Positions 2,568 through 28,557 of a stretch of DNA of 50,064 bases are shown one piece after another (position 1 is the first letter of the stretch; the number at the start of each line of letters is the position of its first letter). The stretch covers positions 1 through 50,064 of the IMG/VR virus record IMGVR_UViG_3300039149_000012, one strand, 5' to 3'. The notes under the pieces are model-generated. The model worked only from the letters and a program-made list of their open reading frames with translations, was not told the origin of the DNA and did not search any database. Both the position numbers and the translations under genes were made by a program. This DNA comes from a virus.

Positions 2568-3299
2568 CTAGCCGGGAATGAACGCCGAGGCCAGCTGAGC
2601 AACCGGTTCGGCAATCTGCGAGAACATGCTCGGAGTCTGAACGACGGCTTGTGGCGTGTTGCTGATTGCCCCGGCGACGTTCAGGCCGTGGGTGTACGGG
2701 AACAGCAGTTGCTGCATGGTCTGCTGGTACTGGGCACTATTCTGAAGCTGTTCGATCTGCCGCGACATCGCCCCGGTACTGCTCAATGCGTTGAGACGGT
2801 TCAGTGTCGAGCCCTCCCCGAGTTGATTGAGGATTTGGGCCGCGTTGACACGCCGGTTCTTGGCCGATTCGGCGTAGGGGGCCAGTGTGGCCAGGATGTT
2901 GTTTTGGACGTCCTGAAGGCCCCGGCCGAGGGCATCCTGACCGGACCCTCCGGTGACGCCCCGTAAGGTCAGACCTCGACTGAGGCGGTTGGCTTCGAGG
3001 GAACCCCGCTCATCGAGGACGCTCAACAGGCCCTTGATGGTCGGGTCCTGGGTGATGTCCTGCGATTCGCCCAAAATACCGCGCAATACATCCAGCCCTT
3101 CGGCGTCGCTGGACCCATACTCCTTGCCCTGTGAGACCGCAAGCTGTTCGTTCTCTGACAATCCGGCAATCTGTTCGACCGGCAATTGAGGGGCATCTGC
3201 TTTGAGCAGATCGAGCAATAACTGGTCGGCCCCGGCCTTCTGCGGATTGCGGACGTCCATCGTCTCGGTCTTTGATTTGAAGAAGTCTGTCAGACCCAT
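2568..3299 (-). CDS. Putative minor virion protein
   Basis: A 243-residue, mostly helical protein with a good AAGGAT ribosome site. The central part (SGQDALGRGL...ILATLAPYAESAKNRR, about residues 118-150) resembles a phage structural protein type found next to internal virion genes, but I cannot name the family. The C-terminus is apolar (VAGAISNTPQ...ASAFIPG), which could contact membrane or other ejection proteins. Function inferred from position only. Confidence 0.7.
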   Translation of the reverse strand: MGLTDFFKSKTETMDVRNPQKAGADQLLLDLLKADAPQLPVEQIAGLSENEQLAVSQGKEYGSSDAEGLDVLRGILGESQDITQDPTIKGLLSVLDERGSLEANRLSRGLTLRGVTGGSGQDALGRGLQDVQNNILATLAPYAESAKNRRVNAAQILNQLGEGSTLNRLNALSSTGAMSRQIEQLQNSAQYQQTMQQLLFPYTHGLNVAGAISNTPQAVVQTPSMFSQIAEPVAQLASAFIPG

Positions 3300-3579: not shown

Positions 3580-5153
3580 AGCCGAGCTCCCGTGTAATCG
3601 AGGTCAAATATGATCCCCAGGAAGGCGAAGCCATTGGTGGCCGCCAGCTTGAAATGGCCGTCCCGCACCCTTTTATCGAAGCGCAAGAACTGGCGGTGGC
3701 TCTTGCCGTCGCCATCGAGACTGACGGTACCCAGATTCTCCCAACTCGCCTCATCGCCCTTGCGGAACGAAAGCGTCACCTCGTCACTCGTTCCCGGCCG
3801 GCTCTCGAAGAACAGCCATGCCCCATGGAGGCGCTTGTATTGGTTCCACCCCCCGCCCTGCGTGAAGTCGGTCGAGAGCACGAGCGACCCCGTATAGTCC
3901 ACCCCGGCGTCCTGAGTGCCGTTGGCCGCGATATACGTGTATCCGCTGTAATCGGCGACGAAGAACAGGGCATCGCCCGTTACTGGCGCAAACGAATCGA
4001 TGGTCTCCAGCACGGTGTCGATGATGTCGCTTATATCGTCGATGTAGAGCGTTTCCTGGGCCGTGTACGTGCCGAACGCCGAGATCCCGATAGGTAGATC
4101 AGGCTGCCATAGCTTGGTGTCGAGACTGAGGACGAACGTCGTATCATTGGCGGATGCCGCCCCGGTTTCCGGAACCGACCACCAGATTTGCCGCAGCGCG
4201 CCGACGTATCCACCCCTGATGTACTGGTCGAGTGACGGGTGCATGTTGGCCAGCTTCGTGCGAATGTCGTAGCTCAGAGGCTCGGCAACACCGATCTGGC
4301 GGACGTCACGCTGGCGCGTCCTGTCCAGGCTGATGTAGTACACGTTGCCGTCCGGTGTACTGACGATCGAGTCCGGCCCTACGGTCCCGTGGTTCAGGAT
4401 GTCCTGGCTCTCGTAGACCTCATCGGCCGTAATCAGCCAGGCGGCATTGACGCTATGCTGAGTGAACAGCAGCAGTTGATTGGCGCCGTTGACGTCGTAG
4501 ATGGCCGCCCCGCGAATGCGGTCTCCGGCCGCCAGTTGCCGGTAGTTCGTATCACCGGCTCCGGAGGTATCCCAGTCAGTGATATCACCCGCCGAACACC
4601 AGCGGTCGTTCTCTGGGTACTCCGTGCCGTCCTCGTAGGTCGATAGCAGGTGCAGATAGTTCCAATGGCGAATGACGTACTTGGCTTTGGTCAGATAATG
4701 CGCGCCGTCGTAATCAATGCCGTTGGCCCCGCCTAGATTGGCAAAGGCCGTTGCGGGCGTGGTGTCGTTCCAGTATTGCACCTTATCGAGATTGTTGGTC
4801 GCAACGACGTAGTTGTCGAAATCCGCTACGCTCCAGTGGGTGCAGGAACTCGCACAGGTGAACATCAAGTCCCATTCCGTGTTGCTGTTGTCCCAGAGGT
4901 AGGCATGGTCGGCCGTAAAGGCGAAGAAGTAGAGCAGACCGTCTACGGATTCGTGCAGGTGGTAGCGGATAATGGCCTCTGCGTCCGGGGTCACTGTCCC
5001 AGCCAAGGCCAACGTCCTTCCCGCCATCCGATGGACGGCGTCACGCCAGAAGTAGACCCATTCGCTTTCGTCCCCCATGATTCCCTGAGGGAGCTTCAGG
5101 TGCGGGCAATCGGCCCGTTGGGCCAGCAGGTTGTTGATGATGCCAAATAGCAT
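3576..5153 (-). CDS. Tail nozzle / stabilisation-like protein
   Basis: A 525-residue beta-rich protein. The ATG at 5153 forms a TAATG overlap with the previous stop; a TTG seven codons upstream is less likely. Blocks such as GDRIRGAAIYDVNG...LLLFTQHSV and the repeated short Trp/Tyr-rich strands resemble the beta-propeller tail-hub or packaged-DNA stabilisation proteins of podoviruses (P22 gp10 / T7 gp12 type). Placement between the fibre and internal virion genes agrees with a tail-tip or nozzle part. The assignment rests on pattern and order, not on a computed match. Confidence 0.65.
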   Translation of the reverse strand: MLFGIINNLLAQRADCPHLKLPQGIMGDESEWVYFWRDAVHRMAGRTLALAGTVTPDAEAIIRYHLHESVDGLLYFFAFTADHAYLWDNSNTEWDLMFTCASSCTHWSVADFDNYVVATNNLDKVQYWNDTTPATAFANLGGANGIDYDGAHYLTKAKYVIRHWNYLHLLSTYEDGTEYPENDRWCSAGDITDWDTSGAGDTNYRQLAAGDRIRGAAIYDVNGANQLLLFTQHSVNAAWLITADEVYESQDILNHGTVGPDSIVSTPDGNVYYISLDRTRQRDVRQIGVAEPLSYDIRTKLANMHPSLDQYIRGGYVGALRQIWWSVPETGAASANDTTFVLSLDTKLWQPDLPIGISAFGTYTAQETLYIDDISDIIDTVLETIDSFAPVTGDALFFVADYSGYTYIAANGTQDAGVDYTGSLVLSTDFTQGGGWNQYKRLHGAWLFFESRPGTSDEVTLSFRKGDEASWENLGTVSLDGDGKSHRQFLRFDKRVRDGHFKLAATNGFAFLGIIFDLDYTGARL

Positions 5154-10249: not shown

Positions 10250-11494
10250 TTACGTCTGCACGCACGTGTCGCAACAGTAACGACTTACAGCGGCCTTGTT
10301 GGTCGTACCGCCTGCCTCATTCCACTGCGAAACCTTCACGCCGTAGATTCCGTCTGACTTCACGATGGGCTTATTGGCATCGTACATATCCTCCCACCAG
10401 CCGAACGGCATGGCCCAGGCGAACAGACCGGCGTTGGCACCCAGGAACAGGGCGCGGGCGACGGTGACGCCTGAAGCAACGGCATCCGTGGTGGCCGTAC
10501 GGCCGGCATTGAGCAGGAAGCCCTCGGCCAGCGTCGTACTACCGGCCCCGGTTCGGGTCGGAATGCGCGGGTACTCGTGGATAATCACGCCGTCGAACAG
10601 CGAGGCACCACCGGTGAAGACCGGGTTGTCGTTGCCTCGGGCCGCCAGCGCCTGCTGAGTCAATGCCCAGCCATTGGCACCCAGCTCCGCCTTCATGGAC
10701 TCCAGTTGATACGGGGAGGCGAAGCAGTGGAAGAACTCGCCGATCAGTGGCCCCTGGTGACCCTGGGCCACGTCGAATGCCGTGGACCGCTCGGATCGGT
10801 TGCTGACCTGATAGTACTTGGCCGTTTCGAAACGCGGGTCGGCCATCACCATCTTCATCTTGATCTTCTTGATGACCAGCGTCCCGAACAGGTTGTTCGC
10901 GACAGTGGCGGCGGAAAGCAGCGCATCGGTCGTATAGTCGGCCCCGCTGTTATCCAATGCCGGCGTACTGTCAATGCTCTGCCCGAGGTACATGATGCGA
11001 GTCGACTCCGGATACACCTCGTTGACGGTCTCGATGCTCGCAGACGACACATTCTCGTTGTACTCACCCGTCAGAGACGCCCGGATGTCGTTCTCCATCC
11101 ACTGGGCCAGCAGCCGGGAGAGTTGCTGCTTGGAGAGTTGACGGAACTTCTCGGTATTGACCGAGGTCAGTTGCATACTCATTGCCCCGGCCGACTGGGT
11201 TCGGGTGGCCCGCTCGTGGACCACGACGGATTGATTCTTCATCGTGATCGCCTGGGCGCTGTTGGTGGTATCCCCGTCGTCTCCCACGCCGGCCCCGGTC
11301 AGTTCGTCCACGCATTCGAGGACGACCGTACCCCCGGCCTTGCGGGTGAGGTCTTGATCGACAAGGATAATATCATCCTTGGTGCGTCCCATTAGGGTCT
11401 TGAACCGGATCTGCTCGAGCGCGTCGTTGAACATCCGCGCAGACCATACCTTCTGGGCCCTGGGATCGGTGAAGGCAAAACTTGTATCTGCCAT
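10250..11494 (-). CDS. Major capsid protein (N4-gp56 / DUF4043 type)
   Basis: A 414-residue protein, the usual size for this family. The N-terminus DPRAQKVWSARMFNDALEQIRFKTLMG, then KAGGTVVLECVDELTGAGV and the SVVVHERATRTQSAG block, match the order seen in the N4-gp56/DUF4043 major capsid proteins. The scaffold gene lies immediately upstream. An AAAGGT site sits before the ATG. The end (SRYCCDTCVQT) is cysteine-rich, which is unusual for a capsid protein and could reflect a metal site or disulfide. Confidence 0.85.
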   Translation of the reverse strand: MADTSFAFTDPRAQKVWSARMFNDALEQIRFKTLMGRTKDDIILVDQDLTRKAGGTVVLECVDELTGAGVGDDGDTTNSAQAITMKNQSVVVHERATRTQSAGAMSMQLTSVNTEKFRQLSKQQLSRLLAQWMENDIRASLTGEYNENVSSASIETVNEVYPESTRIMYLGQSIDSTPALDNSGADYTTDALLSAATVANNLFGTLVIKKIKMKMVMADPRFETAKYYQVSNRSERSTAFDVAQGHQGPLIGEFFHCFASPYQLESMKAELGANGWALTQQALAARGNDNPVFTGGASLFDGVIIHEYPRIPTRTGAGSTTLAEGFLLNAGRTATTDAVASGVTVARALFLGANAGLFAWAMPFGWWEDMYDANKPIVKSDGIYGVKVSQWNEAGGTTNKAAVSRYCCDTCVQT

Positions 11495-11522
11495 GGTGTG
11501 CTACCTTTCAGCATTTACAGGC

Positions 11523-12329
11523 TCACCCGTCCGGGAAACGGATGCCGAGTCGTTCGGCCGCCGTCGGGGCGCTCTTTTGCGTTCGCTGAAGCGCCTCTCT
11601 CCGGGTCGGGGGTTCCGCCTGTTTGGTTGTTTTGGTTGTCGCCTCGGCCTTCGGCTTCGGCGTGTTCGTTGGTTGTAGGGCCGCTCTGACGCGGTCCCCT
11701 GCTTCCGTGTCTGCGTCTTGGGCATACTCACGACAAATCTGGTAGAGGAGTTTTCCGGCGCGAGGGCCGGCCGCTCGCACGGCCGCCTTATCGTGTTCGG
11801 TGAGGAATCCACCGCCCGCTGAAATCATCGCATCGAAGTCGAGCCCTTCGCCCATGGCGTCCTCGTCCATCGACACCTTGGCGGTGGCGATGCTCTGGGC
11901 CATGGCCTGACGCGATTGATTCGCGGCCTGGGCCTGCTGAGTCAACTCTTGCCGACTCTTCTCGAACTTCTGCTGGGCCAGTTGGACCGACAAGGGAATC
12001 GGAGCGTCCGGGTCGTCGGCGTTCTGCTCGGCGAAGATGTCGATCGGGCTCTTGGCATCCGGCACCGTGACCCGCTGTTCCTCGGGCAGTACGTTCACCG
12101 CCTCCAGTTCAGCCACTCTGGACTGTGCCCGGCGAAATTTGCGCCGGTACTCATTGCGCTCTTTCGCCACCGCCGCCAGGTTTGCCGACTCATCGTGTTC
12201 CATCTCCTGAGTATCGGTCGAGGCCTCTTGCTCGGCGCCGAGATCCTGCTCGTCCAGACTCTCGTCAGCCACTTGCTCGGACTCCAAATCGTCCATGATC
12301 TCCTCTACTGCCATGTCTTGCGTTGCCAT
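11523..12329 (-). CDS. Capsid scaffolding protein
   Basis: A 268-residue, strongly charged protein directly before the capsid gene. The ATG at 12329 (site AAGGGA) is preferred over a TTG ten codons upstream. The acidic N-terminus (about 5-50) is followed by a coiled coil (KERNEYRRKFRRAQSRVAELE) and a Gln/Ala-rich helix, then a basic, Thr/Lys-rich tail. This acidic-coiled-basic plan and its place are typical of scaffolding proteins, which guide capsid assembly and leave the head. Confidence 0.75.
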   Translation of the reverse strand: MATQDMAVEEIMDDLESEQVADESLDEQDLGAEQEASTDTQEMEHDESANLAAVAKERNEYRRKFRRAQSRVAELEAVNVLPEEQRVTVPDAKSPIDIFAEQNADDPDAPIPLSVQLAQQKFEKSRQELTQQAQAANQSRQAMAQSIATAKVSMDEDAMGEGLDFDAMISAGGGFLTEHDKAAVRAAGPRAGKLLYQICREYAQDADTEAGDRVRAALQPTNTPKPKAEATTKTTKQAEPPTRREALQRTQKSAPTAAERLGIRFPDG

Positions 12330-12460: not shown

Positions 12461-12561
12461 AAAAGCCGACCGTCTACATCCCGCCTCGGTCACTGCGGCA
12501 CCGCACGTTGGCGACCGTCGCCCCCGCTGTGCGGAAACTGGCCGGCCCATAACCGGCGCAC

Positions 12562-12611
12562 AAAAAAAGCCCGCGACCAGACCGAGCCTATCTCGGCCTA
12601 AAATCGCAGGC
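12562..12611 (-). terminator. Rho-independent terminator on the leftward strand
   Basis: Read leftward, GCCTGCGA (12611-12604) pairs with TCGCGGGC (12576-12569, one G-U pair) and is followed at once by seven T. Inside the loop a second helix, CCGAG/CTCGG, can form. It would end or weaken transcription from the portal-side genes before the scaffold-capsid genes and so help set capsid protein dosage. Confidence 0.7.
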
Positions 12612-12673
12612 GGTGTGTTCCGTTGCTGCTGGGTTGCTGCTGGGTGTTTATTCAGTTGTAAAGAGCACTGTCC

Positions 12674-12835
12674 TTATCCCATGAAGTACGAAAGCAACTG
12701 TTCGTCCAGTTCATCCCGCAGCTTCTTGCCACAAGCTATCAGACTATCCTTTCTCCCGATAGCCACCCAGTAGAGTCGCCAGTTAGGACGCCAGAAGCAG
12801 TGGCCATGCAATTTCATAAACTCACGTCGGTTCAT
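12674..12835 (-). CDS. Small protein with MNRREF start, unrecognised
   Basis: A 53-residue open frame starting MNRREFMKLH with an AAAGGTG site. The 32 bp around its start are a near-copy of the start of the Tat-leader gene at 13065, about 230 bp away, but the downstream sequence differs: it is aromatic and basic, then acidic (LRDELDEQLLSYFMG). It may be a real small gene or a hybrid made by duplication of the neighbouring start. Confidence 0.45.
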   Translation of the reverse strand: MNRREFMKLHGHCFWRPNWRLYWVAIGRKDSLIACGKKLRDELDEQLLSYFMG

Positions 12836-26914: not shown

Positions 26915-26964
26915 AGCGCCCGGTCGAGTTCGCTTCCGCTCCCTCCGCAGGCCGGGCGCTTTTT
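26915..26964 (+). terminator. Terminator after the HNH gene
   Basis: AGCGCCCGG (26915-26923) pairs with CCGGGCGCT (26952-26960), followed by TTTT. The loop is about 28 nt. The ribosome site of the next gene begins immediately after, so it may also act as an attenuator. Confidence 0.65.
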
Positions 26965-26979
26965 CCTGGAGGCACAACT

Positions 26980-27156: not shown

Positions 27157-27438
27157 GTGGGTCAGTTTGCAATGACAGAATGGTATGGCCAGATCGAAGA
27201 ACCAGTCCGGGCACTTGTCAAAGTCCTGCGGAATAACGGCTTCAACACCGTGTCGTCGTGTGGGCACAGCAATCCATACCCGAGTATCCAAATGGAATGG
27301 TATGGATCAGATGACGAGGCGCGACGGCTCTATAACCTACTACATGACACTGGATATAGCAGGTTTGAGATTCGCTGCATTTGGCCAAGTTCTGGAGTAG
27401 GTCGCTTTATGGAAGTCTCGTTGTTCGGTGACCGTTAA
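27157..27438 (+). CDS. Small conserved phage protein (SSCGHxxPYPSIQMEW type)
   Basis: 93 residues. The GTG at 27157 has an AAGGA site at the right distance; the ATG five codons later does not. EEPVRALVKVLRNNGFNTVSSCGH, then IQMEWYGSDDEARRLYNLL match a small protein seen in many phage genomes. The Cys-Gly-His turn could bind metal. Function unknown. Confidence 0.7.
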   Translation: MGQFAMTEWYGQIEEPVRALVKVLRNNGFNTVSSCGHSNPYPSIQMEWYGSDDEARRLYNLLHDTGYSRFEIRCIWPSSGVGRFMEVSLFGDR

Positions 27439-27468
27439 CGGCCCGTAGCTTGATTGACAACTGAATAG

Positions 27469-27600
27469 TATGCTGTGCGTTTAACCTTCTATTCTGCACT
27501 TCTCAAATCCTTCGACAGATTTGAGTTGTCCTTGGGCGAGATGGGCCTGCAGAGAAGTACAAAACCCATCTCGCTTTATGCTTTCAAAAGACCGGCACTT
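27469..27600 (+). ncRNA. Structured element 1 of the array
   Basis: Between spacers 1 and 2. It holds CTCAAATC/GATTTGAG (27502-27509 and 27518-27525) and a 10-bp stem GCGAGATGGG/CCCATCTCGC (27536-27545 and 27565-27574) followed by a T-rich run. A further short stem, CAAAAG/CTTTTG, reaches into the next spacer. Unlike elements 2-4 its two ends do not pair with each other. Confidence 0.4.
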
Positions 27601-27615
27601 TTGACAACTGAATAG

Positions 27616-27837
27616 ATGCTGCGAGACGGCGGACCATCGCGGGCCTCCAAGCCGATCCGATGGGCGCGGCCGGGTAAACACGTAAGTCGAGGAGTAGTGG
27701 TTGGGCATGAACGGTGCTGCTTTAGGACGCTGGTTGACCGAAAGCGAGTCCCGGCGACTCGAACCCATCTGAATAGAGTGAGCGGCGAAATCGACGTATA
27801 TGTCCTGAATGCGCTTAATCCGTCTCTCACAGCAGTA
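27616..27837 (+). ncRNA. Structured element 2 of the array
   Basis: The two ends pair: TGCTG (27617-27621) with CAGCA (27830-27834), then GAGACGG (27623-27629) with CCGTCTC (27820-27826), a 12-bp terminal helix with a small internal loop. The 190 nt inside is GC-rich and has no convincing gene. Spacers lie directly on both sides. Confidence 0.45.
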
Positions 27838-27850
27838 TGACAACTGAATA

Positions 27851-27972
27851 TGCCCCCATGGCGTAGTCTTGTCCGAGAGGTTCTTCGGTGTATGACGTCA
27901 CACCGCATAACTACGCCGAGGACGATAGTCTGTGGAAAGCACGTGGACTGCGGTTCGATTCCGTAGGGGGCA
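27851..27972 (+). ncRNA. Structured element 3: tRNA-like RNA
   Basis: The ends TGCCCCC (27851-27857) and GGGGGCA (27966-27972) form a 7-bp acceptor-like stem. Just before the 3' strand is an exact T-arm: TGCGG, loop TTCGATT, CCGTA (27949-27965). The 5+7+5+7 geometry is that of a tRNA. The 91 nt between is too long and does not give a standard D-arm and anticodon arm; it can form GGCGTAGT/ACTACGCC and CGGTGT/ACACCG helices. No CCA is encoded. It may be a tRNA-like RNA or a tRNA with an insertion. Confidence 0.5.
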
Positions 27973-27988
27973 TTTGACAACTGAATAG

Positions 27989-28122
27989 ATGCTGTGCGGC
28001 GGCGAACCCTCTCGGGAGTGGGCCGCAACTTCACAAGAGTCTTCCCGAAGGTAATGAGCCCGTGAGGCAGCGCGCGTGCTGATGGGCCAACGGTCGATAG
28101 CGGATCACCCGCCGCACAGCAT
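27989..28122 (+). ncRNA. Structured element 4 of the array
   Basis: ATGCTGTGCGGCGG (27989-28002) and CCGCCGCACAGCAT (28109-28122) form a perfect 14-bp closing helix around a 106-nt core with smaller stems such as CTTC/GAAG near 28041. This is the clearest of the units. Its 3' end (CCCGCCGCACAGCATT) is nearly repeated at 28433-28448. Confidence 0.5.
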
Positions 28123-28148
28123 TGTGACCTTCTATCGGAGGCGTTAGT

Positions 28149-28355
28149 ATGAAATGCGAAGAAGCGTTGGCCTGGGATGAATGGGCCAAGAAGAACACGC
28201 AAACATTGGATGTGACAACCCTGAAAGCTCCGCCCGATCAACAGGAGTATCTTGACAGTCGAATGCAGAGGTGTTTCCGGGATGGCGTAGAGTTGGGCAA
28301 GCAGATTGCTCTGAAGCGCCTGACTCGGGCACTTAAGGACTGCATCGAGTATTGA
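28149..28355 (+). CDS. Small early protein, unrecognised
   Basis: 68 residues with a CGGAGG site. It is helical and charged throughout (MKCEEALAWDEWAKKN, then SRMQRCFRDGVELGKQIALKRL). It lies between array element 4 and a pair of hairpins. No family recognised. Confidence 0.6.
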   Translation: MKCEEALAWDEWAKKNTQTLDVTTLKAPPDQQEYLDSRMQRCFRDGVELGKQIALKRLTRALKDCIEY

Positions 28356-28380
28356 GGTCTTGAAACCGGGTTGGAGCAAC

Positions 28381-28448
28381 TCACGATATCTAGCCAATAT
28401 CGTGATGTGAGAGCCTAGGTGGGGAACCTGGGCCCGCCGAACAGCATT
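28381..28448 (+). other. Hairpin pair and orphan array-like tail
   Basis: TCACGATAT, loop CTAGCCA, ATATCGTGA (28381-28405) is a perfect 9-bp hairpin. CCTAGGT, loop GGGGA, ACCTGGG (28414-28432) is a 7-bp hairpin with one G-U pair. Then CCCGCCGAACAGCATT (28433-28448) nearly copies the 3' end of array element 4, as if this were a degraded fifth unit. Confidence 0.45.
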
Positions 28449-28557
28449 TTATCCAACCGTAATGCTGGCCGGACAATATCCCACTTTAACCGACCAGCAT
28501 AGCATGGAGGCTCAATGGGGCCATGGATGGCCCGCTTTTGTAGAAATGAGGAACATG

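Follow-up and report, generated by a model that had tools for sequence, protein, structure and literature searches.

Phage T4 carries, beside the tRNAs of its tRNA cluster, two stable RNAs, RNAC (species 1, 139 nt) and RNAD (species 2, 119 nt), which have no known function (PMC3014915, PMC9697503). For decades they have remained a loose end. In bacteria, pre-rRNA combines a boxA signal with a leader-trailer helix (PMC10250234), and the boxA consensus in gamma-proteobacteria is GYTCTTTAANA (PMC5725501). Here we describe a viral array of structured RNAs that has features of both systems.

The array is found in a 50,064-bp virus record of the podovirus type, called the window below. The portal protein of the window was assigned to phrog_156, and its closest relatives among sequenced phages share just 21-29% identity; the other genes include those for terminase, head, Erf, exonuclease, SSB and helicase. 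The array, probably part of the early (rightward) transcription unit of this phage, is located upstream of the Erf gene. It is flanked by a small reading frame that ends at 27438 and by another that starts at 28149, both of them on the + strand like the units themselves. Upstream of the array, 3' of an HNH endonuclease gene, a strong GC-rich terminator-like hairpin, GCGCCCGG...CCGGGCGC TTTTT, was found at 26915-26965 (+).

Structured units between repeated spacers

The 14-nt sequence TTGACAACTGAATA occurs in four copies across 27454-27987, three of them exact and one with a single mismatch, and these copies split the region into units as proposed in a preliminary description of this DNA. When up to 3 mismatches were allowed, 7 matches were found in the window versus 2.0 expected, and none of the shuffles reached 7. 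No spacer follows E4. A fifth copy, on the opposite strand, is located just ahead of a terminator-like hairpin, GCCTGCGA...TCGCGGGC TTTTTTT (12560-12680, - strand), upstream of the gene that precedes the major head protein gene. The boxA-like GTGCTCTTTACAACTGAATA of this copy, together with the hairpin, could possibly serve in antitermination control of the head genes.

The absence of a supported coding frame, noted earlier, agreed with the codon usage of the window's genes. The 74-aa open reading frame filling E2 scored -0.12 and the one running across the array on the minus strand scored -0.21, similar to wrong frames (mean, -0.18), on a scale where most real genes of the window score 0.1 to 0.38. 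No Rfam family matched the array above its gathering score.

Complementary ends had been reported for three of the units, and a terminal-helix test gave the same picture. Only 2 of 2,000 shuffles for E2, 3 of 2,000 for E3 and none of 2,000 for E4 paired equally well, whereas the end pairing of E1 was not significant (414/2,000). In E2, E3 and E4, the pairing begins 0-1 nt from the unit borders. The perfect 14-bp helix claimed for E4 was recovered, and the closing helix of E2 consists of 5 and 7 bp separated by a 1x3 internal loop (Table 1). Folding of the whole units gave z values of -1.8, -0.9, -2.4 and -2.6 for E1 to E4, respectively; the interior of E2 is therefore not unusually stable. E2 and E4 are 79% identical over their first 29 nt and 86% identical over 44 nt when the spacer is included, and judged by sequence they are diverged copies of one another. 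The closing helices of E4 and E2 have 12 pairs in common, 2 of which change on both strands from E4 to E2 with pairing kept (C9-G to A9-T and G11-C to A11-T). The searches turned up no near relative of this virus, so covariation was limited to this comparison of E2 with E4. Further downstream, the stretch at 28358-28507 is non-coding and very stable (0 of 200 shuffles as good), and it is possibly a fifth unit.

Table 1. Positions of the array features in the window and of related units in other records
Feature	Position	Strand	Description
Spacer copy 1	27454..27467	+	exact TTGACAACTGAATA
Unit E1	27468..27600	+	10-bp hairpin (GCGAGATGGG/CCCATCTCGC) and 6-bp hairpin
Spacer copy 2	27601..27614	+	exact
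Unit E2	27615..27836	+	closed by 27617-27621/27830-27834 and 27623-27629/27820-27826
Spacer copy 3	27837..27850	+	ATGACAACTGAATA, 1 mismatch, starts ATGACA
Unit E3	27851..27972	+	tRNA-like RNA
E3 acceptor stem	27851-27857/27966-27972	+	7 bp; 8 bp with outer A-U
E3 hairpin in place of D and anticodon arms	27860-27867/27910-27917	+	8 bp, encloses an inner hairpin
E3 arm 5' of T arm	27927-27949	+	
E3 T arm	27949-27965	+	TGCGG TTCGATT CCGTA
Spacer copy 4	27974..27987	+	exact
Unit E4	27988..28124	+	closed by perfect 14-bp helix 27989-28002/28109-28122
Candidate further structured element	28358..28507	+	z -3.2; closed by GGTTGGA/TCCAACC; without spacer
Fifth spacer copy	12649..12662	-	TTTACAACTGAATA, full boxA core GTGCTCTTTACAACTGAATA
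T4 RNAC	L148 609-747		compared with L149, L150, L151
pemK-containing units	L156 6913-7141; L218 3837-4100; L168, L196 (- strand)		boxA-led, helix-closed

The tRNA-like unit E3 and T4 RNAC

The 3' end of E3 reads TGCGG-TTCGATT-CCGTA-GGGGGCA, and its last seven bases pair with the first seven of the unit. This gives an acceptor stem with the T arm stacked next to it, like the upper half of a tRNA. Among the units, an acceptor stem and a T arm in tRNA geometry were found in E3 only, and neither E2 nor E4 has a T arm. A scan of 20 Mb of random sequence matched in composition gave no instance of the E3 geometry at a length of 100-140 nt. E3 is without a D arm and an anticodon arm and gave no cloverleaf with ARAGORN at standard settings, under which no canonical tRNA was found anywhere in the window. 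With relaxed thresholds, ARAGORN fitted both E3 and E4 as tRNAs that contain an intron, their borders close to those of the units. Since these thresholds yield many chance tRNAs, the strict geometry scan alone was used. Based on the geometry of RNase P substrates, it is plausible that the 5' end of E3 would be cut at the spacer.

Other identities were considered. A tmRNA reading was rejected with a score of 7.1 bits for RF00023 against a gathering score of 47, and so was a Y-RNA reading, for which a TROVE/Ro protein was looked for and found absent. A second E3-like candidate of 145 nt, in L029, seems to be two adjoining short tRNA-like pieces. Short tRNA-like RNAs that ARAGORN does not find were also seen in L057 (- strand, 4475-4552) and L304 (near 3050-3130). 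They consist of an acceptor, a single hairpin and a T arm without a cloverleaf, and the one in L057 resembles a tmRNA minus its messenger part.

T4 RNAC was present in 720 phage records. When four diverged copies were compared, 15 of 44 pairs changed on both sides, versus 5 in shuffles, including pairs of the acceptor and T stems. Covariation supported an acceptor stem with two U-U mismatches, a T arm and a variable-arm hairpin; RNAC, a sequence with no match in Rfam 15, turned out to be a tRNA-like RNA. E3 has the same layout of acceptor, large hairpin, variable hairpin and T arm, with no such mismatches in its acceptor stem. A covariance model of RNAC found the T arm of E3 alone (4.5 bits, E 0.4), so homology is not supported and E3 is RNAC-like in layout rather than an established member.

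The boxA-like tag and helix-closed units elsewhere

By its sequence, the spacer corresponds to the 3' half of an extended boxA, (GCTCTTT)GACAACTGAATA; it is not private to this locus but belongs to a known type of signal in rRNA operons. The extended 3' part, GACAACTGAATA, is present in the array copies as it is in rRNA leaders and spacers. The GYTCTTT core is degenerate in the array spacers, and only the copy at 12649 has it; binding of Nus factors at the array is therefore doubtful. In bacterial genomes, GCTCTTTGACAACTGAATA, which is boxA plus a 3' extension that is conserved, had at least 119 matches, versus about 2 expected by our own estimate. Among the matches listed, 12 were flagged by a simple motif search as lying beside 16S/23S ends and 3 were near tRNA genes, and the remaining ones were elsewhere, many in repeated leader-like contexts. 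A search of the genomes for TGACAACTGAATAGATGCTG found none.

In viral contigs, 10 of the 122 TTGACAACTGAATA sites are followed within 60 nt by a tRNA or tmRNA gene (0.6 expected), which amounts to about five independent cases once related contigs are allowed for. A T arm followed after 8-38 nt by GACAACTGAATA (T arm-N8-38-GACAACTGAATA) was found in 48 viral loci, versus about 0.3 expected by our own estimate, and GACAACTGAATA with a T arm at 85-115 nt was found in 20. The spacer motif is common in viral arrays of tRNA genes, and G at -7 and C at -4 remain frequent 5' of GACA, similarly to boxA. The DNA of the array had no convincing match in phage records or in 19 viruses that share the Erf protein. 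Exact scans of viral contigs for tandem spacers found no second four-copy array and just one two-copy locus, in a cyanophage, where both copies are within one non-coding locus and none occurs elsewhere in 34 kb. Cyanophage-like contigs (L272, L273 and L275; L274 and L276) have a structured non-coding locus with two GACAACTGAATA copies and a hairpin before each; it is conserved in these two diverged groups and has no Rfam match.

Of 177 viral sites, 8 have a helix-closed stretch that begins 0-3 nt beyond the tag, versus 1.3 expected; among 81 bacterial sites there are 6, versus 1.1 expected. This enrichment is also seen at offset -4 and tapers to about +12. Some of the eight viral matches are probably not RNAs of the array kind: possible small genes lie inside the stretches of L068 and L103, that of L277 surrounds a tRNA, and L086 looks like coding sequence. 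The layout recurs in the distant podovirus L336 (IMGVR_UViG_3300037247_000717), with a tRNA-like unit U1, the spacer TTGACAACTGAATA, a helix-closed unit U2 and a tRNA-like cloverleaf. U1 (ATGCGGCGG...T arm...CCGCCGCAT; 120 nt) is closed by a 9-bp helix, and U2 (ATGCCCCGTG...CACGGGGCAT; 137 nt), whose first A is shared with the spacer, by a 10-bp helix. L336 is like the window in having a portal in phrog_156 and one further structural PHROG family in common, and unlike it in having one spacer instead of four. Its units have no nucleotide similarity to E2 or E4, and its proteins have almost none to those of the window (tblastn).

In Firmicutes, helix-closed units of 229-270 nt come immediately after GCTCTTTGACAACTGAATA; they contain the Rfam cis-regulatory motif pemK (RF02913) and have reading frames downstream. 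The closing helices of the related units in L156, L218, L168 and L196 differ in sequence with pairing kept, and the Rfam motif seems to be just part of a larger closed RNA. The window units have no sequence similarity to these units and no match to pemK. A Ruminococcus MAG (L193, - strand, 1233-1513) and a viral contig (L093, 212-485) also carry boxA-led, helix-closed RNAs that are homologous to each other (72% over 185 nt) and have no Rfam match. In L067 (- strand, 11491-11674), a helix-closed unit is followed by TATTGAGTTGTCAA; because this comes close to the spacer's reverse complement, the closing helix there could be lengthened by the spacer itself. A complementarity of the spacer to SAGTTGTC, noted in E1 and L067, was dropped (3 of 177 sites versus 1.8 in controls).

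Interpretation and comparison with described systems

We consider it reasonably probable that the array is a polycistronic operon of stable RNAs whose units copy the plan of pre-rRNA, with boxA followed by an end-closed RNA. The earlier suggestion of a set of small structured RNAs with a shared separator is supported by the terminal helices, by the compensation that links E2 to E4, by the tRNA-like shape of E3 and by the layout of L336. Since other viruses show related layouts, the array appears to represent a genuine type of viral RNA operon that has mostly gone undescribed. The boxA-like tag might help the polymerase through the untranslated stretch and hold the 5' strand free to pair once the 3' strand emerges. 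The end-closed domains would then withstand exonucleases, and the single-stranded spacers would be cut, by RNase P at the 5' end of E3 and by a single-strand- or helix-specific RNase elsewhere. Antitermination, cutting, stability and any role in trans are what we infer for these RNAs.

The units could instead form a cis-acting leader, of the nut/put or EAR kind, that antiterminates transcription of the downstream recombination genes and gives no separate small RNAs. The relation of the tag to boxA, the fifth copy ahead of a terminator-like hairpin before the head genes, and the cis-regulatory pemK upstream of reading frames in the boxA-led Firmicute units all favor such a leader. We nevertheless find it rather unlikely, because the full acceptor and T-arm geometry of E3 is unexpected in a nut/put site, four different units would be redundant, and the viral tag prefers tRNA/tmRNA genes. 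The spacer also contains TTGACA, the -35 consensus, and some TTGACAACTGAATA sites elsewhere (L106, L028) resemble ordinary promoters, having a TATAAT-like box about 17 nt further along. If it were a promoter for sigma-70 or a phage RNA polymerase, each RNA would start at the first base of its unit. This is very unlikely: none of the array copies is followed by a -10 box, the two cyanophage copies share a single locus, and PF00940 had no match in the window, although the control for PF00940 likewise gave none.

DNA-level elements, either iterons or small mobile elements with inverted repeats, would account for the perfect 14-bp terminal inverted repeats of E4 adjoining a repeated 14-mer, but the spacing is uneven (147, 236 and 137), a target duplication is absent 3' of E4, the window has just one further near-copy of the spacer, and E3 has tRNA geometry; we regard this origin as highly improbable. 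Equally improbable is descent from a viral tRNA array whose genes have decayed, some of them carrying introns or insertions. The relaxed ARAGORN fits with an intron and the frequency of the spacer motif in such arrays are in line with decay, whereas the missing T arms of E2 and E4 and the compensatory changes that keep the terminal helices are not. In addition, U1 of L336 shares the T-arm geometry, so E3 looks kept rather than debris.

BoxA-led, end-closed RNAs may form a general, unrecognised class, a cassette used by phages and bacterial mobile elements. We put this forward tentatively. Under the same tentative reading, the pre-rRNA cassette would serve to produce and stabilise numerous unrelated non-coding RNAs, which in this array would occur in tandem and include tRNA mimics. 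The tag plus the closing helix offers a sequence handle for large-scale searches for such RNAs, and for testing whether phages rely on the antitermination and folding machinery of host rRNA for non-coding RNAs of their own. The tRNA-like layout recurs in unrelated viruses and is linked to the boxA-type tag of rRNA and viral tRNA genes.

The initial statement that no family has this layout was too strong, as the T4 cluster with RNAC and RNAD is a close analogue. As is proposed for the array, it produces polycistronic stable RNAs, here of 120-140 nt. It differs in containing tRNAs, whereas the window has no canonical one, and its RNAs showed no boxA-like spacer between them. Bacterial rRNA operons resemble the array in that a boxA-type tag precedes an RNA domain whose ends pair; in the array, the domains are units of 120-220 nt instead of rRNA, the tag lacks its 5' half, and the helix begins directly at the tag.
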